This document shows positions 4,977 to 33,421 of a DNA stretch of 35,446 nt, one piece after another; position 1 is the first letter of the stretch; every line of letters begins with the position of its first letter. The stretch comes from Candidatus Helarchaeota archaeon (lineage in GTDB: Archaea > Asgardarchaeota > Lokiarchaeia > Helarchaeales > HEL-GB-A). The position numbers and the translations under genes were made by a program. The notes beneath the pieces were generated by a model. It worked only from the letters and a program-made list of their open reading frames with translations, made no database searches and was not told where the DNA came from. The stretch covers positions 1 to 35,446 of the forward strand of contig JABXJT010000052.1 in the NCBI GenBank assembly GCA_013375455.1, written 5' to 3'.

Positions 4977-6389
4977 ATGGAAAAACCACTCACAGCAATA
5001 GTTCTCGGCGCCGGAAGTCGTGGTAGGGACGCCTATGGCGCCTATAGTGCTGCTAATCGAAATAAAATTCAGATCATTGGTGTTGCTGAGCCAGTAGAAG
5101 AAAGGCGGCAGCATTTTAATGAGATTCACGACGTTCCAGAAGAAAATAGCTTTGATACGTGGGAAAAAATTCTAGCCAAACCGAAATTCGCAGACGCCGC
5201 TATTATCACGACGCAAGATGACATACACACGCAACCAGCCATTCAGGCAATGGAATTGGGGTATGACGTGTTGCTCGAAAAACCAATGTCAAATAAATTA
5301 GATGAATGCGTGCAGCTGGTTAAAAAATCCGAAGAATTAGGTAAACACCTTCAAATCTGCCATGTCTTACGGTATGCTAAATTCTATTCAACGGTTTATG
5401 ACGTGATACACAGTGGAAAAATTGGTGATCTCATCAATATCGAATGCAAAGAAAATGTAACTTATTGGCATTTCGCCCATAGTTTCGTCCGAGGTTATTG
5501 GCGTAATTCGATAGAAACATCGCCCTTAATACTCGCCAAGTGCTGTCATGACCTAGATTTACTCTATTGGATGGTTGGCACGCTTCCTAAAAAGATCAAT
5601 TCCTTTGGATCCCTTACGCACTATAAAGCAGATCAAGCCCCTCCTGATGCCCCGAAGCGTTGTCTTGATGGGTGCCCACATACTGACACGTGTATACATT
5701 ATGCTCCTTTTCTCTACATTGATGTGGTTCCATTGCTGCGCATTGGGGTGGAATCGGATTGGAAGCTCGCCAAATTTTTTGCAGGGCTCGCTTTGAATCA
5801 TAAGACTACATTTAAGGTCTTTAGTACCTTGATTCCACCGCTCAAGCAACTCAGTGAGTGGAAACAATGGCCTATTTCGGTCATAACGGATGATTTAAGC
5901 TATGAGGGAAAATTGAAAGCACTTGAGGAAGGTCCATGGGGTCGCTGCGTTTATCATTGCGATAATAATCAACCCGATCACATAATTGTAGGGATTAATT
6001 TTGAGAATGGGGTAACCGCCAATCTAACCGTTCATGGTCACAGCGCTCGTGAGGGGCGAAGCATCCGCGTCGATGGGACCAAAGGTACTCTCATCGGCGA
6101 ATTCCTGCATTCTGGAGAGAAATTATGGTTTTATGATAAATTATCTGGGAAAAAAGAACTAGTTCATAAAGCAAGACTCTTTGAGGAGGGACTTGTAGCT
6201 CATGGTGGGGGGGATTGGAAGTTAATGGATGCGTTCGTGGATCTTTTGCGGAATGATATAACTAAACCTTTGACAGGTGCCCGAGCCTCGTTGGAGAGTC
6301 ACATTATGGCGTTTGCCGCCGAAAAATCTCGAGTTGAGGGCAAAACCATCTCCATGGAAGATTACCGGAAAGAAGTAATGGCGAAATAA
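4977..6389 (+). CDS. Gfo/Idh/MocA family NAD(P)-dependent oxidoreductase
   Basis: A sugar or cyclitol dehydrogenase-type protein. The N-terminal Rossmann domain carries a glycine-rich GAGSRGRDAYG turn (residues 11-21). The family EKP motif is at 101-103, with the catalytic lysine at 102, and the expected histidine/aspartate pair is in CCHDLDLLYWM (H191, D192). A later GTKGTL strand belongs to the C-terminal sheet domain. At 470 residues it is longer than the usual 330-380. Much of the excess is an insert at about 220-330 that starts with a cysteine/histidine patch (C229, C233, H235, C239) which could bind a metal. Substrate is unknown. Confidence 0.9.
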   Translation: MEKPLTAIVLGAGSRGRDAYGAYSAANRNKIQIIGVAEPVEERRQHFNEIHDVPEENSFDTWEKILAKPKFADAAIITTQDDIHTQPAIQAMELGYDVLLEKPMSNKLDECVQLVKKSEELGKHLQICHVLRYAKFYSTVYDVIHSGKIGDLINIECKENVTYWHFAHSFVRGYWRNSIETSPLILAKCCHDLDLLYWMVGTLPKKINSFGSLTHYKADQAPPDAPKRCLDGCPHTDTCIHYAPFLYIDVVPLLRIGVESDWKLAKFFAGLALNHKTTFKVFSTLIPPLKQLSEWKQWPISVITDDLSYEGKLKALEEGPWGRCVYHCDNNQPDHIIVGINFENGVTANLTVHGHSAREGRSIRVDGTKGTLIGEFLHSGEKLWFYDKLSGKKELVHKARLFEEGLVAHGGGDWKLMDAFVDLLRNDITKPLTGARASLESHIMAFAAEKSRVEGKTISMEDYRKEVMAK

Positions 6390-6427: not shown

Positions 6428-9016
6428 TTAAATTGCATTGAGATTTATTTCAAAGCTAAAGGTCGCGCCTTTATTGATTCCGTCAGAGGTACCCCAAATT
6501 CGGCCCCCATAGGCTTCAAGGATTTTTTTACAGATTGCCAAGCCAATCCCGATTCCGGTGACGCTCAATTTGTCGGTCTCTACAAACTCAGGATAGCGCA
6601 TGAACAGTTTCGAATATTCTTCCTGAGATATTCCGATCCCGCGATCTCGAATAGAAAAGGTCCAAGTATTGTCCTTTATGACCGATTTAATGAAAATAAT
6701 GCCATTCGGGAATGAGTACTTCACGGCATTGTCGAATAAATTCCTAATGACCTTACTTATTTGGCTTTTATCGAATGGTAATTTATCATCAGGTTCAAAA
6801 TTCGTTTCAATGGATAAATTTTTAGTTGCAATTAAATCGTGAAATTCCTCTCGAATTTCTTTAATGATGTCAGACGCGTAGAAATAATCTTTTTGAAGCT
6901 GCGTTAGGCCGAGTTTCAATCTGGAGTAGGAGAACATTTCATTAATTAATTGTTCTATTCGATCCTCATTTTTCAAAATTTTTCGCAAGTTCTTAACCTG
7001 AAGGTCATCTAGGTTGGAGGATTTCATCAATATTTCGGTAATATTTTTAATAGTCATTAGGGGCGTGTTTAATTCTTGTGAGATTTCTTGATAGAATTCA
7101 TCTTGTAATTTTTCTAGATCCTTTCTCTGGGTAATATCTCGGACTACTCCCACGTATTTCAGTTTTCCGGCTTCTTTCACTAGTCCGCCGTTTAGGGCTA
7201 CATGCACGTAGTGTCCATTTTTCTGCTTGACCCGGTACTCAACATACAGGCGCTGTTGAGTTTTTAATGCTTCCCGAAGTTTTTCAATAACGTGGGGTAC
7301 ATCATCTGGATGGATGAAATCGAGTCCACTTTTCCCAATTATCTCGTACTCATTATAACCTAACATTGTTCGTATTTGAGGACTCACGTACATGAAAGTA
7401 CCATCCACGCTCATTTCTACGACAACATCTGATAGATTTTGTAATAAATCCCGATACTTTTTTTCTGATCTTTTTAATTCTTCTGCGGTTTTCTTGCGTT
7501 CAGTAATATTTCTTGAAATAATAATGCCTTTAGTTTCACCAAATTTGTCAATAAAAGTTTTGCCTCTTAGTTCTAGCCAGAGATAGTGCCCATCCTTGTG
7601 TCTATATCGTAACTCTGCTGAGCCCTCACCAATATTAACTCCATCTTCAAAAGTTTTCATCGTTTTTCCAAGATCATCTGGGTGAAGAAAATCTAATGCG
7701 CTCTTGCCAATCAAATCTTCTTTACCATGCCCCATGATCCTCTTGTGGGCGTCCTCATTCACGAATTCATATTCGAAATTTTGATTCATAATTTCGATTA
7801 GATCATTTGCATTTTCTGAGATCAGGCGGTATTTTTCTTCTGATTCTTTTAATTTTAATTCAGATTCTCTCCGCTCTGTCATATCCCTTGCAATCATAAG
7901 ACCTTTTAAATTGCCTTCTTTATCTCTAAACGTGCGTCCCTTAATATCGAACCAGACATATTTTCCGTCTTTTCGTCTAAGACGTGCTTCAACTTGCCCT
8001 CCGCCTGTTAGCGACCCTTGTCTTAAATATTCTAATTCTTGCTCAACATCGTCAGGATGGGCAAAATTCAGTGACAATTGTCCGATTACTTCCTCCTTAG
8101 TATAACCCATTATTTCCCGAATCATTCGCTCATTGATGTATTCGAATTCAAATTTATCACTGATTACCGAAATCAAATCGTTTGCATTTTCGCAAATGAG
8201 GCGGTACTTTTCTTCGGATTCCCTCAATTCCAATTCTGCTTGTTTACGTTCGGTTATATCTCTTGAAATGACAATGCCTTTCAACTCGCCATCCACATCT
8301 CTGAAAGTTCGCCCGCGCAATTCAAGCCAAATAACATGCCCATCCTTATGCAATACTCTAGCTTCAACTCTCCCTTCACCTTTTTCAAATCCCATAACCA
8401 GTGCATTTAAAACCTTTCTGTGATCATCCGGATGAACAAATTCCAGAGCATTCGTCCCAATTAACTCTTCCTTGGAATATCCTGACATCCTCTGTAATGT
8501 TTCATCGTTAATAAACTCGATTTCATATCGCTGATTAACAATCCCAATCAAATCATTTGCATTTTCAGAGATGAGGCGGTATTTTGCTTCAGAGTCCCTT
8601 AACTGCGATTCGGCTATCTTGCGTTCAGTGATATCACGAGATATGATACTCAACACGTGCTTATCTTGATAATGTATTAGACTTGCGCGTACTTCAACAT
8701 CTACAAGCCGTCCGTCTTTCGTCCGATACTGCCGCTCTCCCAAGTAACTCTTCTGTTCCTCTAAAATTTGATTGATTTTCTGATTAATATCTTCACTATC
8801 ATGTGCCACGAAGTCAAAAAGAGTGAGGTTCGAGAATTCCTCGGCGGAATACCCCAGGAGACACCGAAGAGCTGCATTACTTACAAGGATCTCTAACGAA
8901 TTTAAACTTACAAGGAAGATGCAATCTGCACTCTGATCAATGATAGCCCTGTAACGTTCCTCACTTTCTCTAACTTCTTTTAGGAGCGCTTGATAAGATT
9001 TTTCTGATGAACTAAT
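6428..9016 (-). CDS. Multi-PAS histidine-kinase-like sensor lacking the phospho-acceptor histidine
   Basis: A cytosolic sensor with five PAS/PAC modules (starting at about residues 15, 142, 267, 391 and 516), each ending in a D[IM]TxR-type PAC tail. These are followed by a HisKA-like helix pair and a HATPase domain with N-box NLFDNAVKYS, G1 DRGIGI and G2 GIGIGL. The canonical SHELxTPL box reads SQELNTPL: Gln647 (CAA at 7076-7078) replaces the phosphorylated histidine, so normal autophosphorylation should be impossible. The first canonical start, GTG 8809, falls inside PAS1. The frame is open upstream to 9016, where ATT follows AAGGAGG (9025-9031) by 8 bases, so I propose an ATT start giving 862 residues. 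No transmembrane segment and no adjacent response regulator are visible. Confidence 0.85.
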   Translation of the reverse strand: MSSSEKSYQALLKEVRESEERYRAIIDQSADCIFLVSLNSLEILVSNAALRCLLGYSAEEFSNLTLFDFVAHDSEDINQKINQILEEQKSYLGERQYRTKDGRLVDVEVRASLIHYQDKHVLSIISRDITERKIAESQLRDSEAKYRLISENANDLIGIVNQRYEIEFINDETLQRMSGYSKEELIGTNALEFVHPDDHRKVLNALVMGFEKGEGRVEARVLHKDGHVIWLELRGRTFRDVDGELKGIVISRDITERKQAELELRESEEKYRLICENANDLISVISDKFEFEYINERMIREIMGYTKEEVIGQLSLNFAHPDDVEQELEYLRQGSLTGGGQVEARLRRKDGKYVWFDIKGRTFRDKEGNLKGLMIARDMTERRESELKLKESEEKYRLISENANDLIEIMNQNFEYEFVNEDAHKRIMGHGKEDLIGKSALDFLHPDDLGKTMKTFEDGVNIGEGSAELRYRHKDGHYLWLELRGKTFIDKFGETKGIIISRNITERKKTAEELKRSEKKYRDLLQNLSDVVVEMSVDGTFMYVSPQIRTMLGYNEYEIIGKSGLDFIHPDDVPHVIEKLREALKTQQRLYVEYRVKQKNGHYVHVALNGGLVKEAGKLKYVGVVRDITQRKDLEKLQDEFYQEISQELNTPLMTIKNITEILMKSSNLDDLQVKNLRKILKNEDRIEQLINEMFSYSRLKLGLTQLQKDYFYASDIIKEIREEFHDLIATKNLSIETNFEPDDKLPFDKSQISKVIRNLFDNAVKYSFPNGIIFIKSVIKDNTWTFSIRDRGIGISQEEYSKLFMRYPEFVETDKLSVTGIGIGLAICKKILEAYGGRIWGTSDGINKGATFSFEINLNAI

Positions 9017-14943: not shown

Positions 14944-15864
14944 GTGGTAACTTTGAGTTTTAGTGATAGAGTGCGGAAACTCGTGATAGTGGGATTAGAC
15001 CGGGCGGGAAAAACCTCTATTCTCAACATATTAAACCAAGAATATAACCTGATGGATAACATCAAGCCGACCTTGGGAGTCGATCGAAGGGTTTTAGAGG
15101 TGCTAGGATTTCAGATTGTGAGTTTTGATCTTGGAGGGCAAGAGAAATTTCGGGATGGGTATTTGAAAGATCTTAAGATTTTTCAAGGCACAGACACTCT
15201 AATTTTTGTGATAGATACATTAGATACGGTAAGATATCAGGAAGCACTTCAGTATTATCAGGAAGTACTCAAAACATTTAAAACGCTTAAATTAAATCCA
15301 AAAATCGTAATATGCATTCATAAAATAGATCCCAACCTCAGATTCGACCCTGAAACGGTTCATAACATCGAAGAAGTGATGGAACTCTTCGTTTCAGCGT
15401 CAAAGGGATACGAAGTAACCGTGTATATAACGTCAATTTATGATCGAAGCTCGATTATCAGGGCTTTTTCAAAAAACTTACAAGAACTCATTGAAACTAT
15501 CAAACCGCTCCAATCAATTCTCATGTCGCTTGTTGGCCTTTTAAAACTAGATGGCGCAGTATTGTTTGATGATAAATTCTTAATAGTCGCGGACTATTTC
15601 CAAGATGCTCAAGCCGAAGAATTATGTTTTGGGACGGTTTATAATAGCGTATATTATATGTCACAGCAGAATCCGGAGTATGCTACAAATTTAGTTGGGA
15701 ATTTCGAAATTGCATTAGGTGAACAAAGCATTCAGAAAACTTATAGTTTTATAGAGGTGCCATTCAAAGGTTGGAACCTTTATTTATTGGCAATGGGGAA
15801 TCAAAGGTATGATCCGAAGACTTTACTAATGAAATTCGAGTCGATTGCAAGGATACGCCAATAG
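14944..15864 (+). CDS. Rag/Gtr-type GTPase with C-terminal roadblock-like domain
   Basis: A 306-residue GTPase. G1 is GLDRAGKTS (17-25), G2 threonine is in KPTLGVD (T43), G3 is DLGGQE (62-67). G4 is HKID (126-129), not NKxD, and G5 is TSIYD (163-167). HKxD plus TSIYD is the signature of eukaryotic RagC/Gtr2-class GTPases, and the following RSSIIRAFSKNLQELI helix also matches. Residues ~190-306 form a second alpha/beta domain as in Rag proteins, where a roadblock-like C-terminal domain mediates dimerisation. The start is GTG 14944, weakly supported; TTG 14953 is an alternative. In eukaryotes Rag GTPases report amino acid status to TORC1; the archaeal role is unknown. Confidence 0.88.
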   Translation: MVTLSFSDRVRKLVIVGLDRAGKTSILNILNQEYNLMDNIKPTLGVDRRVLEVLGFQIVSFDLGGQEKFRDGYLKDLKIFQGTDTLIFVIDTLDTVRYQEALQYYQEVLKTFKTLKLNPKIVICIHKIDPNLRFDPETVHNIEEVMELFVSASKGYEVTVYITSIYDRSSIIRAFSKNLQELIETIKPLQSILMSLVGLLKLDGAVLFDDKFLIVADYFQDAQAEELCFGTVYNSVYYMSQQNPEYATNLVGNFEIALGEQSIQKTYSFIEVPFKGWNLYLLAMGNQRYDPKTLLMKFESIARIRQ

Positions 15865-25045: not shown

Positions 25046-25085
25046 TTTTCAATTCCATATTTGAGGATACTAAGGAGTGATAAAA

Positions 25086-26528
25086 ATGCCAAAGAAGAAG
25101 AAGAAGCCGGCTGGATCGAAGAAAAAGAAGAAACCAACAACAAAGAGAGCAGTGAAAGCTAAAAGAAAAGCGGTAAAGAAGAAAAAGAGAGTTATGACAA
25201 AAGCTCAGAAAAAAGAAATTAAAAAGATAATAGATGCTGGGCGTAGATTAGGTGTGGAAATTGATGACGAAAAAGCATTAAAATGGATTGAAGATATGAA
25301 AGCCGCCCAAGCAACAGCAGAGGATTTAGCAATCGATAAAGACAAGGGTGTTTATGGACATGAAGTTTCGCTCATCGATTTTGATTCGGATGACTTGGAG
25401 AGATTTAGAAGAGTAGCTGATATAGTAGGTCTCCCCGATACGGGAGGAGTTGTGGAAACTGCGATTTCTTTATCAGGGTCTGCAGCGCAAGGGAAAGTCC
25501 AACGTTATCCTGGTGATTTAGATTTTTTCGAACGTGTGAATATAATTGTAAACACTAGGGAAGAGGCGTCAAAAATCATTGGGAAAGTAATGAGAGAGAA
25601 AGCATTGGATAAATTTTATTCGCCTACGTATCAATTAATTGAGGTAAAATGGGGAACGTGGAAAGAAAACGTTATAAAAGGTGATAAGACCATAAAGGCG
25701 GGATCGCCAATGTCATGGAATGCCACTGAAGTAAAACAAGGTTACATAAAAGTTAAGGATCAAAAGGGAAAAGCTAAAAAGATTAACTGGGCATATGGAG
25801 AGAAAGATCCAGGCTGGTGCAAGCTCGATTGGCTGATTGCGGAACCCGAGAAAGGCATAGTTAATGTTTCAAATATGCTGGATGTGACTTGGGAAGCCCC
25901 TGAGGGAAATATAATTCCCCTAGATGGACAACTTGATCCTTATTTCCAAGAAGTTTATCTCGAAGCAGAATCAGTTCCACTCTTTTCGAAATTGCGAGAA
26001 CATCTAACACCTGATAAGTTGGATAACTACGTCAAGGCATTAGAAGGGCAGGTACGTCATTATACGGAAGAAGGACATGAAAACTATGGCAAAGTGGCAA
26101 AGCGTTTATACAATATTTTTCGTTTAACCGGAGCACATATTGAAGCAATGTTTATCCGAGAGTTATTCGATGAGCCTGCTGCAGCGCTATATCAGGTATG
26201 GTCGTTGCTTGATACCATTGATGATGCTGGAAAACCCGATTCTACCATTGATAAAAAGACTGTTGCAAAACAAGCAAGTGATTTAGTGAAACTAGTAGTT
26301 GAAACGTGTGAGGGTGAGGCTGAAACAAAGATCGTGGAGGCCTTGATGACACTCCGGGATGATATTACTGGGGTCGAAGATATTTCAGATAAAGAATGGA
26401 GTAAAACCATCTCTGAATCACGTTTCCTCGTGGTAAAACTCGTGAATGAATATTTCTACAACCGGTTAAATATCGTCCCCAAAATAGTGAAATACATCGA
26501 ACAAATTCGGAAGGAAGCATCTCATTAG
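25086..26528 (+). CDS. Nucleotidyltransferase-like protein with lysine-rich N-terminal tail
   Basis: A 480-residue protein; ATG 25086 is chosen because GGAGTGA lies five bases upstream. The first ~45 residues are mostly lysine with alanine and proline, like histone H1 or nucleic-acid-binding tails. Near residue 140, SGSAAQGKVQRYPGDLDFFE fits the polymerase-beta superfamily pattern (GS followed by DxD), and a later CKLDWLIAE could supply the third acidic residue. This suggests transfer of a nucleotide to RNA, protein or a small molecule, but I place only the motif, not a family. The rest is helical. Its stop overlaps the E2-like gene by four bases, tail to tail. Confidence 0.65.
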   Translation: MPKKKKKPAGSKKKKKPTTKRAVKAKRKAVKKKKRVMTKAQKKEIKKIIDAGRRLGVEIDDEKALKWIEDMKAAQATAEDLAIDKDKGVYGHEVSLIDFDSDDLERFRRVADIVGLPDTGGVVETAISLSGSAAQGKVQRYPGDLDFFERVNIIVNTREEASKIIGKVMREKALDKFYSPTYQLIEVKWGTWKENVIKGDKTIKAGSPMSWNATEVKQGYIKVKDQKGKAKKINWAYGEKDPGWCKLDWLIAEPEKGIVNVSNMLDVTWEAPEGNIIPLDGQLDPYFQEVYLEAESVPLFSKLREHLTPDKLDNYVKALEGQVRHYTEEGHENYGKVAKRLYNIFRLTGAHIEAMFIRELFDEPAAALYQVWSLLDTIDDAGKPDSTIDKKTVAKQASDLVKLVVETCEGEAETKIVEALMTLRDDITGVEDISDKEWSKTISESRFLVVKLVNEYFYNRLNIVPKIVKYIEQIRKEASH

Positions 26529-27127
26529 TAGAGATTTTTTGTAAATAATGCCAAAGCCGTATAATAACTCAGCATGAGGAGAAAGTGGGCGATCCCCATA
26601 CTGCCGTCCTTAGCCCAGCGCTCCTTGATTTTCCCGAGGCATGCGTTCTGGTGGTCGCCCGCGGGTTGGATAAAATGTCTAAACCCATAATTATCGGCAA
26701 TTGGGCATTCGTAAGGATATCGGAGGGGAAGGCGAATTTGGAAGAAGACACGCTTGGTTTCGTTACCAAGGAGGAATTCGCTTTTACAATTGTATATTCG
26801 AGAATTCTTAAGATCAGGCTGAACTTCTTTGAAAATAATCTGTTCATGACAGTTGAACCTTAAATATTCTAACTTCTCCTTTTCTTCTTTCAATCGTGCG
26901 ATCCAGTCTTTTGAAGTCGGTGATGCAATGGTTTTAAAGGGCGGAATTTCAGTTTCCTTCAAAATTAGCTGTTTGCCGCTTTTCATGGCAATTTTAACTT
27001 GGAACTCATGGCGAATCATCCGAAGTTCGGCGAATATTGCAGTTTTAAACTGTTCCCATTGTGAAATCATTGGTTGAATAGCAGACCGGAATTTTTGGTC
27101 AGTCAACCCTCCATCTGCAATGTTCAT
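26525..27127 (-). CDS. E2/UBC-fold-like protein with a candidate catalytic cysteine
   Basis: A 200-residue protein. After a ~70-residue N-terminal part with no match, residues 75-200 follow the layout of ubiquitin-conjugating enzymes. There is a first helix (WIARLKEEKEKLEYL), strands up to VFFQIRLPLRYPYECP (the E2 FxxxFPxxYPxxPP region), a histidine (H151) where HPN lies, and NACLGKIKERW matching the E2 CxxxLxxxW segment, giving Cys163 as candidate active site. Trailing helices follow. The assignment is by pattern only; an inactive RWD-like fold is possible. Its ATG overlaps the stop of the GTPase gene (ATGA), so the two products are made together. Confidence 0.55.
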   Translation of the reverse strand: MNIADGGLTDQKFRSAIQPMISQWEQFKTAIFAELRMIRHEFQVKIAMKSGKQLILKETEIPPFKTIASPTSKDWIARLKEEKEKLEYLRFNCHEQIIFKEVQPDLKNSRIYNCKSEFLLGNETKRVFFQIRLPLRYPYECPIADNYGFRHFIQPAGDHQNACLGKIKERWAKDGSMGIAHFLLMLSYYTALALFTKNLY

Positions 27128-28110
27128 ACCTGTACCTCCGAATATAAAAGATTCTGAAGTTCTTGTATTTTGGCTTGATTTTTAATCACTATCATGCGAA
27201 CCAGACTTCGGACGATATTTCTGAGATTGTGTCCCTGGGTGCCAACTGTTTCAAAAATAGTCAGATCCTGAAACATCGTATCAGTAAAGAGGGATGTTTG
27301 AAGTTTTTCCTCGTAACGGATGTGGGTAAGTAAGCGATAGACGTCATCTGTAGAGATGGTATGAGGGAGATCCATCTTATTTAATGCGATCACCAGAGGA
27401 TACTGAACATTAGGAGGTAAATTTTCCAACAATTCTTTAAAAATATCGAGATTTACTTCTATCCTGCGTGATACATCCCAAATAAAGATAATTCCATCGA
27501 TGCTCGATAAAAAAGTGGTCAGTTCAATCAGGTTTGACGGTATTTTTTTGTCATAGTGAATGCGATAAATTATGTCCTTTTTAGATCCAACAATATCTAA
27601 CGATGAACATGCCTCGTCTTCGTCAATAATTTTATTCCGTTCGGATTGAAGGTATTTTATGGATTTTTCGGTTTGGCGTTCAAGTTCTCTATCGTAGGCT
27701 CGGCAAAGCTCTTGGATACGATAGGTCGCAATATCAAAATAGGTTTTCGCTTCAGTAAAGTTTTCATTTTGAATTAAATGAATCAGGTTCTGCTTTAGCA
27801 TGCGAGGAAGATCTTTTAAATTACGCATGTAGCCGTTGACCTGGCGTCTTAATTGTTTTCGTTCATTTTCAATGGATTTGAGGAAGTTTGCGTCCAAAAG
27901 ATTCTCATTATCCGCTAACCATTGAATAAACGTGCGCCTTCCACTTGCAGGAGGGCCGAACAGGTACAAATTAAAAATAATCGTTTGGTTTTCTCTATGC
28001 ACAGAGCTATTCAGTGGAGGGTACCTTTTAAACATTCGAGAAATAGTACAAACAAAATAATTGCATTCTGAGGGAATACCCGAATTATAGATTCGTTCCT
28101 CTCTTTGCAA
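27124..28110 (-). CDS. MglA-like small GTPase with altered P-loop and a helical insert
   Basis: A GTPase-like protein of 328 residues from TTG 28110, or 302 from ATG 28032, which avoids overlap with the preceding gene. The P-loop reads GPPASGRRT (52-60) with arginine in place of the invariant lysine. A charged ~110-residue helical insert (about 75-170) separates it from the rest of the G domain. The switch II DxxG motif is not evident. The later strands match MglA (IDGIIFIWDVSRRIEVNLD) and G4 is intact (NKMD at 244-247). Nucleotide hydrolysis is therefore doubtful, but binding is possible. It is tied by overlap to the E2-like gene and lies next to an 8-TM protein. Confidence 0.7.
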   Translation of the reverse strand: MQREERIYNSGIPSECNYFVCTISRMFKRYPPLNSSVHRENQTIIFNLYLFGPPASGRRTFIQWLADNENLLDANFLKSIENERKQLRRQVNGYMRNLKDLPRMLKQNLIHLIQNENFTEAKTYFDIATYRIQELCRAYDRELERQTEKSIKYLQSERNKIIDEDEACSSLDIVGSKKDIIYRIHYDKKIPSNLIELTTFLSSIDGIIFIWDVSRRIEVNLDIFKELLENLPPNVQYPLVIALNKMDLPHTISTDDVYRLLTHIRYEEKLQTSLFTDTMFQDLTIFETVGTQGHNLRNIVRSLVRMIVIKNQAKIQELQNLLYSEVQV

Positions 28111-28924
28111 AATAAGTAGGATTTAGACCTCCAAGGATAGAGCCACAGATTATTAAAATAAACCCAATAGTTATAGAGAGAGATTTATCAAATAAAAATA
28201 AATTAGTCAATATCCAGTTGTATGATAAAAATAGCAACCCGAATAGTATGAAAACTATTCCAAACGGGCTGATCCGATAAAACCTTTCGCGGTTATTGAA
28301 GTCTGGGTTTAATTCATGGTTTTTTAGTTTCTCAATGAATTTAGACTTCAAGAAATCGCGATAATCCCGCCCGAGAAGAAATCCCCCAAGTATCATACAA
28401 AACAATCCAAAAAATTGAAGCAGGTGTTCTTTGAGGAAATTAAGACCCCAATGGGTCTTAATTTGCCACCACCACCAACCAGTGAAAACGCAGATAAAGC
28501 CTAATACAATGAGAACGATTCCAAATGCATTCTCATGGATGTGATATCCTCTAACAGAACTTTGTTCATATTTTCCTTGATGTTTGGTAGCGTAAATAGG
28601 CAGTAACCTGAAAAATAAGGCATAAATAAACATGATTGATAGGATATTGATTGTATTGAAGAGGACGTGACTAAAGGTGGATATAAAAAACCAAAAGAAA
28701 TTATTAACCATGCCAATAGCGAAAATAATCCAGGTAACTATTTGGAAAGCCGTAGAGGGAAGGGAAAATAGAGCCATTATCGCAAGTAACGTGCTTGAGA
28801 AAAAAAGACCAGCCCAATGATATATTGTAAAAGAGAGTGGGTCCATAAGTCCAAGCAGCATTAATCCAAATGTAGTAAATGAAAGAAAGCCAAAGGCAAC
28901 CCAAAAAATATATTTTAATTGCAC
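28085..28924 (-). CDS. Multi-pass membrane protein of unknown function
   Basis: A 279-residue protein with about eight membrane helices, including a run of tryptophans (TGWWWWQIK) and a long basic cytosolic loop (GRDYRDFLKSKFIEKLKNH). I recognise no family. Its end overlaps the longest form of the GTPase gene by 26 bases, and it leads the three-gene run membrane protein, GTPase, E2-like. It may be the membrane anchor or receptor of that module. The start is ATG 28924. Confidence 0.65.
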   Translation of the reverse strand: MQLKYIFWVAFGFLSFTTFGLMLLGLMDPLSFTIYHWAGLFFSSTLLAIMALFSLPSTAFQIVTWIIFAIGMVNNFFWFFISTFSHVLFNTINILSIMFIYALFFRLLPIYATKHQGKYEQSSVRGYHIHENAFGIVLIVLGFICVFTGWWWWQIKTHWGLNFLKEHLLQFFGLFCMILGGFLLGRDYRDFLKSKFIEKLKNHELNPDFNNRERFYRISPFGIVFILFGLLFLSYNWILTNLFLFDKSLSITIGFILIICGSILGGLNPTYFAKRGTNL

Positions 28925-31531: not shown

Positions 31532-32263
31532 GTGACGGACGTGAAATCTGATTTCTACATTGTATTCATGGAACACGAGGCATTTAGGAATATAGTTATC
31601 CATACAGCGCAGCATGCGCATTTTGACATGAAAGTGAAGAATTGGAAAGAAGTTTATGGTTTTCTCTCGGGGTATATAGATGAAGAAAGTCAGTGGACGC
31701 ACATTATAGATGCAATTCCCATAACACATGGAACACATTATGGTGTTGAGTTCAAAAAGCAACATTACATATTATCTGCTTATATAAATTCAATGATCGC
31801 CGAGAACGATGAATTTTTCGTGGGATGGTATCATTCCCATCCGGGATTAGGTCTATTTTTGTCACAAACTGACATAATTAACCATCTTGGCTACCAAATC
31901 GTTAATCCAAAGGCAATTGCACTCGTGTTTGATCATACCAGGGTGATTTCGAGGGAACCACCAGTGGTGGTTTTTCAATTGGATAATACTGCTTTTGGAG
32001 CTTCCTCAGCTTATCATGAAATAGAATATTACATTGGTGGGATCAATAAGAAAAATGAAACTGATCTCATTAAGGAGATGTATTACGAGATTGAGTCAGA
32101 GGTTATTGCCAAGAAAATCCCGTCCATTGAAAAATCAATGGTGGAAAAAGTAAAGAAATGGCGAAACCAGACGAAATTTAAACTACCAACAAAGCAGATG
32201 TATAAAAAGAAAAAAGGCGGGCTTAAAAAAACCCTCTTACCCTATTTAGAAGATTCGAGTTAG
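31532..32263 (+). CDS. JAMM/MPN+ metalloprotease, Rpn11/CSN5-like
   Basis: A 243-residue protein with a complete JAMM zinc site: E40 in EVYGFLSG, then H101, H103, S111 and D114 in VGWYHSHPGLGLFLSQTD. Of known families this best resembles the eukaryotic Rpn11/CSN5 enzymes (VGWYHSHPGxGxxLSxxD), which remove ubiquitin or Nedd8 through an isopeptidase reaction. A ~70-residue helical, lysine-rich C-terminal part (KQMYKKKKGG near the end) follows the domain. The start is GTG 31532 with AAGGTTGAG ahead. The gene ends three bases from the pseudo-Rab gene. No ubiquitin-like gene lies in the window. Confidence 0.9.
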   Translation: MTDVKSDFYIVFMEHEAFRNIVIHTAQHAHFDMKVKNWKEVYGFLSGYIDEESQWTHIIDAIPITHGTHYGVEFKKQHYILSAYINSMIAENDEFFVGWYHSHPGLGLFLSQTDIINHLGYQIVNPKAIALVFDHTRVISREPPVVVFQLDNTAFGASSAYHEIEYYIGGINKKNETDLIKEMYYEIESEVIAKKIPSIEKSMVEKVKKWRNQTKFKLPTKQMYKKKKGGLKKTLLPYLEDSS

Positions 32264-32266
32264 AGT

Positions 32267-33421
32267 CTAGAGGGGTGTTATGATTTTGATAAATCGTTCT
32301 TTTATACGAATGTAGACTGAATAGGGGAGCCGGCCTGACATGAATTGAATGTGATGATTGCGGAGTAGTGCCCGAGCTTCCGCGGGAGTGAGGTGCGCGT
32401 CCAAGTCGTCTGTTGCATATATATTTTCATTGAAAATTGGATAAGTCTCTTCAGGTAAGGGTTCCGGTTCCGGTAAAACAACATCATAAACTGGGAGATT
32501 CCGCGGTTCCCCAGAGAAATCCTTGCAAACCGCAACCTCCGCCATTTGGTTTAAAACATGGTTAGGCAGATTATCGTCCGCAATTGCCATGATCTTGGCG
32601 AGAATGAGGAGTTCGTGATCATACAATTCCTGATTGGACCACCCATGACCTCCTGAAACGATACATAGGGATTTCCTACGGGGTCGTTTTTTATAGTGAC
32701 AGCTGTAATTTTCACACTTGCCACAGATGATGGGTTCAAATGTTACGCTTCCATTAAGTATGTTAATAGAAAAGAGGCCATGGTGTGTGAAGATTACGAC
32801 CTCATCCCTCTCATTCACGTGGAAATCCAATTCGTCTAGGACCGACATTATCGTTTCGAGTTGCTTCTGTTTCCACTCGAAAGCGATTCGTCTGTCTACT
32901 TCATCATAGCCGAGGTGGTTTAGGATTAACCCTGCTGCGGTTTCAAAAACCGAAACCATTTGGGTAGGGTCATGGGCAATTTCAAAATAAACAACATGCG
33001 CCATCCTTTCACATAATTGTTCAATTTCCTCACGAGAAATTTGTCGAAGATCCGCTCTATGAGCATTACAACCGATCAAAATGATGGGGACTGCACCTAA
33101 ATTTGTATAAATTTCAGTGATTAAATTTATCAGAGTGGGATTAAAGGAGTGGTGGCGGGTCAAATCAAATGCAAGAATTGCACAAGATGCACCCCGAAAA
33201 AAGGAAGAACGGAAAAAACGAAAGCGTTCAGAACTGGCAATGTCCCAAATCGAAAGCATCACCCGGTCATAAGGTAATTCGACATCAATAATACCAATAT
33301 CGCAGCCTATAGTATGTTTATATCGCTTGGTGAAGGAGCTTTGTAGGTGATCTGCTATGATATTCCACGTATCAATGCGTGTATCGCCAAGCATTACACA
33401 TTTTACCTTATAACTGGACAT
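32267..33421 (-). CDS. Rab-like pseudo-GTPase with a C-terminal zinc-binding region
   Basis: Residues 1-170 keep the Ras/Rab fold pattern (YKVKCVMLGD, KHTIGCDIG, VMLSIWDIA, ASCAILAFDLTRHHSF) but the nucleotide motifs are gone. The P-loop reads GDTRIDTW instead of GDxxVGKS/T, WDTAGQE reads WDIASSE, and NKxD reads CNAHRAD. It should not bind GTP in the usual way. A second region (~190-384) has four cysteines (C233, C236, C241, C253), probably a zinc site, then a helical end. It may act as a scaffold. Start is ATG 33421. It converges on the JAMM gene and lies near the other atypical GTPase. Confidence 0.75.
   Translation of the reverse strand: MSSYKVKCVMLGDTRIDTWNIIADHLQSSFTKRYKHTIGCDIGIIDVELPYDRVMLSIWDIASSERFRFFRSSFFRGASCAILAFDLTRHHSFNPTLINLITEIYTNLGAVPIILIGCNAHRADLRQISREEIEQLCERMAHVVYFEIAHDPTQMVSVFETAAGLILNHLGYDEVDRRIAFEWKQKQLETIMSVLDELDFHVNERDEVVIFTHHGLFSINILNGSVTFEPIICGKCENYSCHYKKRPRRKSLCIVSGGHGWSNQELYDHELLILAKIMAIADDNLPNHVLNQMAEVAVCKDFSGEPRNLPVYDVVLPEPEPLPEETYPIFNENIYATDDLDAHLTPAEARALLRNHHIQFMSGRLPYSVYIRIKERFIKIITPL

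Follow-up and report, generated by a model that had tools for sequence, protein, structure and literature searches.

A UFC1-like E2 gene overlapping a degenerate GTPase gene in a Helarchaeota genome, and its probable place in an archaeal UFM1-type conjugation system

The window analysed here, a stretch of 35,446 nucleotides (nt) from Candidatus Helarchaeota archaeon (contig JABXJT010000052.1), carries on its minus strand a gene for a polytopic membrane protein (28085-28924, 279 amino acids (aa)), followed by genes for a degenerate MglA/Arf-like GTPase (27124-28035, 303 aa if begun at ATG 28035) and a UFC1-like E2 protein (26525-27127, 200 aa). The stop codon of the GTPase gene (TGA) overlaps with the start codon of the E2 gene in a shared ATGA (27124-27127), as the first-pass annotation of this DNA had stated, and at least 49 nt separate the stop of the membrane protein gene (28085) from the GTPase start. 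The TTG at 28110 given earlier for that start is probably not correct: homologues P0021 (303 aa) and P0022 (304 aa) begin like the window's ATG 28035, and 12 of the 17 rows of the GTPase alignment and profile (A8, covering 17 GTPase clusters) begin at columns 11-12, where the window has GTG 28002. Because of these homologue starts, ATG 28035 or GTG 28002 is the probable start. The upstream protein, previously described as having eight transmembrane segments, is indeed polytopic and encoded on the same strand; a crude hydropathy scan, read from overlapping windows, gave about seven to eight segments, so that eight is plausible and the number is not fixed. It had no Pfam match above cut-off and no NCBIfam match at an expectation value (E) of up to 0.01.

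The E2/UBC-like layout proposed for the 26525-27127 product was borne out by structure prediction and comparison with the PDB. The predicted model adopts an E2/UBC fold with UFC1 as its nearest structure, the UFC1 matches beginning at residues 53-57 and running to 199. A model built from the 18 close homologues reached a predicted local distance difference test (pLDDT) score of 51.6 and was discarded; with divergent relatives added, the score was 79.0. Ahead of the UFC1-matching part, the secondary structure of the model has a long N-terminal helix (residues 3-50, 26978-27121). The E2 fold thus stood, whereas its generic UBC type did not, and as the protein is UFC1-like its modifier should be a UFM1-like protein and not ubiquitin. 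Cys163 (codon TGC, 26639-26641), lying in NACLGKIKERW and singled out in the first-pass annotation, aligns with the ICL cysteine of UFC1 at the catalytic position and remains the candidate catalytic residue. It is invariant in 18/18 rows of an alignment of close homologues (A1) and in 49/49 rows of a wider one with divergent relatives (A5), where Trp171 and His181 are also invariant (49/49).

Homologues of the E2 fall into 20 clusters; the three named homologues at 69-83% identity are labelled Helarchaeota, which makes a Helarchaeota host most likely. Left out of A1 were the window's own entry (P0001), the partial P0017 and P0018, a methyltransferase-E2 chimera with a longest contig of 1040 bases; P0016, L085, L088 and the E2-like proteins linked to zinc-ribbon genes at L029, L033, L036, L037 and L091 were also left out of A5. 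Pfam UFC1 was matched by 16 of the 18 A1 members (best 1.3e-5) and RWD by five (best 0.0041), RWD not being found in the window E2. The latter matched neither UQ_con (E up to 1) nor any NCBIfam family (E up to 0.01), and no relative was detected on scanning IMG/VR with A1. In a FastTree phylogeny of A5, the window clade joins E2s of a Helarchaeota cluster (L025 8500-9030, L027 4856-5386 and L039 7341-8171; local support 0.986), to which the window E2 is 38-43% identical.

The neighbouring GTPase had been called MglA-like, and MglA is the best match of profile A8 in the PDB (7.7e-11), followed by Arf, though the P-loop is degenerate. The family retains DxxG and NKxD (N, K and D invariant in 17/17 rows; NKMD at 27370-27381 in the window). 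None of the 15 rows of the 17 that reach the P-loop fits the GxxxxGK[ST] pattern: the Walker lysine position is occupied by Lys in seven and by Arg in eight, the window included, the next position never holds Ser or Thr (0/15; K in seven, N in four, R in three and Q in one) and the one after it holds T or S in all 15. The window P-loop reads GPPASGRRT (27931-27957), with Arg at both the Walker Lys position and the adjoining Ser/Thr position, and a long insert lies between it and DxxG (within 27124-28035). No NCBIfam match was obtained for the window GTPase at E up to 0.01.

For six of the 17 GTPase clusters, the longest contig equals that of an E2 cluster to the base (24731, 35703, 21977, 15721, 11036 and 3486). 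Identical sizes indicate that both genes lie on the same contig, at a distance that is not given; the other 11 clusters are uninformative. One such pair carries the tags ACTSYB_18760 and ACTSYB_18765, a difference of five being the usual step between neighbouring genes, and another sits on the contig of 3486 bases. With Cys163 invariant and six contigs shared, the GTPase-E2 pairing is confirmed as beyond chance. A check of adjacency across Asgard genomes had been suggested; homologues do share contigs, but on present evidence the pairing does not extend to Asgard archaea at large. Among 227 genomes of the Asgard phylum (the phylum of G002, LW55_61; G001 is Hel_GB_B), no close GTPase relative was found (best E 1.1e-20, with at most ten candidates scored per genome), and each of the 48 matches starts at profile position 129 or beyond, never reaching the first 128 positions. 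The pair thus seems limited to one sublineage. Elsewhere, UFC1-like genes are accompanied by E1, JAMM and modifier genes instead of a GTPase gene.

Relatives of the E2 were matched by A1 in ten of the 227 genomes, one match (G128) being probably false, as it is weak and falls in a frame of 364-375 aa that resembles another enzyme by eye. Several of these relatives have similar surroundings, in which a ThiF-type E1 and a JAMM protein are encoded together with up to three E2s (at least one) and a small protein that ends near LG; a contig scan resting on two peptide patterns yielded two loci only. At L027, for example, the UBA5-like E1 is encoded at 5386-6219 and the UFM1-like modifier, which ends in Gly, at 8190-8459. 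Profile comparison with the PDB placed UBA5 first for the E1s, both for profile A3 (6.2e-38, against 5.6e-26 for ThiF and 1.8e-25 for MoeB) and for A9, from a larger group (3.9e-74, against 5.8e-38 for MoeB). UFC1 came first for the E2s of canonical operons (A7; 5.5e-7), and the 13 best matches of the 26-row modifier profile A6 were all UFM1 (0.0024-0.025, the next being 0.11), aligned to the terminal Gly. That E1, E2 and modifier of one locus each point to the matching protein of the UFM1 pathway is stronger than any single match.

The five-row modifier profile A2 matches nine of the 227 genomes, eight of them among the ten with an E2. Five of these eight had supplied the profile; without them, three of four modifier genomes are among the five E2 genomes of 222 (chance 2.2e-5, genome kinship ignored). 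Pfam UFC1 was matched with an E of 0.01 or less in 18/227 genomes (12 above cut-off, best 3.0e-10) and in 0/14 controls. This gave 18 loci (L080-L097) in 15 genomes, G058 (internal stops) and the second match of G111 being left out and the matches of G002 and G025 being covered by earlier loci. Of the 18, 14 have an E1 and 11 a JAMM protein, as judged with profiles from seven other genomes (the window JAMM is included in the JAMM profile), and nine match A2. This is the less circular count, since the final profiles contain members that they then match; with those, E1, JAMM, modifier and E2 lie together within 18 kilobases (kb) in 20/227 genomes, a partly circular figure that covers the surroundings of E2 or modifier matches. 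UFL1 domains (Pfam) occur in 95/227 genomes and 0/14 controls, and in 16 of the 20 genomes with four-gene loci (chance 0.0003; 15 and 0.0018 without the weak G167 match; kinship ignored). Pfam Ufm1 gave five weak matches in the 227 genomes, none above cut-off, and one control also matched, which makes that count uninformative; of eight modifiers scanned singly, three gave an E of 1 or less, the best being 0.0046 and none passing the cut-off. A search for Peptidase C78 found nothing anywhere, controls included, so that absence of UFSP does not follow. Homologues of the modifier form 28 clusters and occur in further bins labelled as Helarchaeota, Lokiarchaeota and Hodarchaeota.

Several of these loci have further features. 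The modifier is fused to Sec61beta in one genome (L057 1225-1803; Pfam 1.8e-12), and the gene order modifier-JAMM-Sec61beta is seen at L056 6267-7600 (Pfam 2.9e-12) and, by eye, at L058 561-1892, which suggests a link to the translocon. Modifier and UFC1-like E2 share one frame at L080 7816-8637, L082 7584-8402, L084 7696-8508, L088 7463-8482 and L089 7775-8587, as if a protease were needed to release the modifier. A frame of 866 aa at L085 (7331-9931) joins modifier and UFC1-like parts to a start that is SIR2-like by eye, and is perhaps a defence protein. ESCRT-related neighbours were identified at L059 2843-3877, L081 8337-9371, L082 8574-9626 and L080 10604-11782; they comprise EAP30/Vps36 domains (1.7e-9 at L081, the other two barely under cut-off), and one is an AAA ATPase that carries a Vps4 C-terminal domain. 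Beside the Helarchaeota cascade of L001, L025 and L027 lies an AAA-like ATPase gene (by Pfam for L027, by eye for the others), followed by an SMC-like gene at L001 and L025. At L029, L033, L036, L037 and L091, the gene of a divergent E2-like protein, which reads FCMPP or much the same at its cysteine, adjoins a zinc-ribbon-like gene, with a large helicase-like gene nearby at L029, L033 and L036 (by eye).

Within the window, a convergent gene (25077-26528, 483 aa) overlaps the end of the E2 gene by its last 4 nt; its product has no Pfam match above cut-off and a nucleotidyltransferase-like motif by eye. A JAMM protein closest to RPN11 (6.3e-11) is encoded at 31532-32263, 4.4 kb from the E2 gene, and is adjoined by a Ras-like GTPase gene (32267-33421). 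A RagA/Gtr1-like GTPase (2.3e-29) is encoded at 14944-15864.

The product of 26525-27127 is probably a UFC1-like E2 that belongs to a UFM1-type conjugation system of archaea. Its UFC1-like identity is very likely, its predicted conjugating activity likely, and a role for the GTPase and the membrane protein possible; the interpretation offered in the first-pass annotation is, as a whole, partly supported, the stoichiometric coupling and membrane-tethered complex suggested there staying putative. In such a system, a UBA5-like E1 would adenylate the C-terminal Gly of a UFM1-like modifier and, via a cysteine of the E1, hand the modifier to Cys163 of the E2 as a thioester, from which it would be transferred to a target; a JAMM peptidase would trim or remove the modifier. 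In the Helarchaeota sublineage, the E2 with its N-terminal helix would be co-produced with the degenerate GTPase, whose long insert may serve as docking surface, and the GTPase and the upstream membrane protein would put the E2 at the membrane. We infer that an E1 and a modifier are encoded by the window's own genome.

A number of observations weigh against this interpretation. Neither E1 nor modifier was seen in the 35,446-nt window, and 0/28 modifier clusters share a longest contig (by exact size) with any of the 20 E2 clusters. The window E2 scores 16.4 bits against a cut-off of 25 for Pfam PF08694 (UFC1), and is therefore filed as UFC1-like and not as UFC1. The TAK motif that replaces HPN in UFC1 (a name taken from a PDB title) is not at its expected place, IQPAGDHQNA being read ahead of Cys163. 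The link of the window E2 group to the larger canonical-operon group is modest, hhalign of A1 against A7 giving a probability of 71.5% and an E of 3.6e-5 across 84 columns that leave out the Cys region, and the match of A7 to UFC1 in the PDB also stops before the Cys. Modifier profile A2 matched nothing in the PDB even with E allowed up to 10, so that the match to UFM1, obtained only with the 26 rows of A6, depends on the wider alignment. The UFC1, UBA5 and UFM1 entries of the PDB are mostly variants of few proteins and hence non-independent, and one member of a GTPase cluster carries the name Deferrimicrobium, perhaps a mislabelled bin.

Some of the same points would fit a UFC1-derived protein that has lost conjugating activity and acts as a UEV-like binding adaptor for the GTPase, namely that E1 and modifier are unseen near the window, that the P-loop is degenerate in the linked GTPase and that the N-terminal helix falls outside the UFC1 part. 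Inactive E2 variants usually lose the cysteine, however, and Cys163, Trp171 and His181 are all kept throughout A5, which makes the adaptor unlikely. The likeness to the UFM1 pathway could also be convergent, with the proteins belonging to prokaryotic defence conjugation of the Bil/CBASS type (E1, E2, JAMM and a ubiquitin-like modifier (Ubl)). Bil systems have the same four-part make-up; among the relatives, one JAMM matches PADLOC BilC (0.0018) and another JAB (0.0044), E1s match CBASS E1-E2 models (up to 2.1e-17), one E2 (from the canonical operon of L095) weakly matches an E1-E2 model (0.001), and the frame at L085 has its SIR2-like start together with modifier and E2 parts. Against this, PADLOC (E up to 0.1) is matched neither by the window E2 nor by the E2 and modifier of L027, and the E1, E2 and modifier profiles each find a UFM1-pathway protein as best PDB match; we consider convergence improbable.

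Least credible of these is that the E2 serves the archaeon's ubiquitin pathway with the GTPase as a chance neighbour. The Rpn11-like JAMM gene of the window would suit this, as would the ubiquitin-ESCRT cluster described for Helarchaeota in the available text of PMC9192718, yet the E2 is UFC1-like and not UBC-like, UQ_con is not matched, and homologues of GTPase and E2 occur together on six further contigs. Readings as a plain E2, as an RWD-only protein or as chance neighbours rank low. As to its origin, the cascade may be ancestral or may have spread from eukaryotes into archaea.

A UFM1-type system in which the window E2 would take part may be older than eukaryotes, as its relatives lie beside UFM1-, UBA5- and protease-like genes. 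We tentatively propose, at somewhat less than even likelihood, that a complete UFM1-type pathway (UBA5-like E1, UFC1-like E2, UFM1-like modifier and UFL1-domain proteins) is pre-eukaryotic and still present in Asgard archaea, where its genes are linked to those of ESCRT (EAP30/Vps36, Vps4) and of the Sec61 translocon, and that in the window's branch a pseudo-GTPase and a membrane protein put the E2 at the membrane. Given an archaeal cascade of this type, small archaeal proteins would allow in vitro tests of how UFMylation arose and what it first did; the ESCRT and Sec61beta gene links direct attention to membranes and the translocon, and the GTPase pairing, if true, would be a new way of positioning an E2.

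It has been described, in the accessible portions of the papers concerned, that UFC1 and UFM1 occur only in eukaryotes while UFL1 and DDRGK1 derive from Asgard archaea (PMC10183829) and that archaea lack Ufm1 (PMC4327156). In the text available for each, PMC9192718 describes Asgard ubiquitin-ESCRT clusters, Hel_GB_B included, has a plot of Hel_GB_B genes that may include the L001 locus, and mentions Asgard UFM1 once, as outgroup in a tree method, and PMC11354881 reports high UBA5 scores in Helarchaeota. The available parts of PMC11354881, PMC12985071 and PMC11698992 contain no archaeal UFM1 cascade, and among the titles and abstract openings listed from the openly readable PMC literature no archaeal UFC1 or UFM1 cascade was found, though a preprint or closed paper could exist.

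Compared with UFC1, the E2 of the eukaryotic UFM1 pathway, the window E2 has the same fold over residues 53/57-199, the same place for the cysteine, WxxRLKEE, YPxxxP and the W...AH pattern; it differs in lacking the TAK motif, in its extra N-terminal helix, in falling under the Pfam cut-off, in being archaeal and in the pairing of its gene with that of a GTPase. Bil and CBASS loci encode E1, E2, JAMM and, in Bil, Ubl together, as do the archaeal loci, whereas the closest solved relatives of the archaeal proteins differ and PADLOC matches are weak or absent for E2 and modifier. The relatives have in common with the UFM1 pathway (UBA5, UFC1, UFM1 and UFL1/DDRGK1) a UBA5-like E1, a UFM1-like modifier, a UFC1-like E2 and UFL1 domains, while their loci encode a JAMM protein and eukaryotes rely on papain-like UFSP enzymes (the latter according to the available text of PMC12985071). 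With the small GTPases MglA and Arf, the window GTPase shares NKxD, DxxG and its best profile matches, and it is set apart from them by its degenerate P-loop and long insert.
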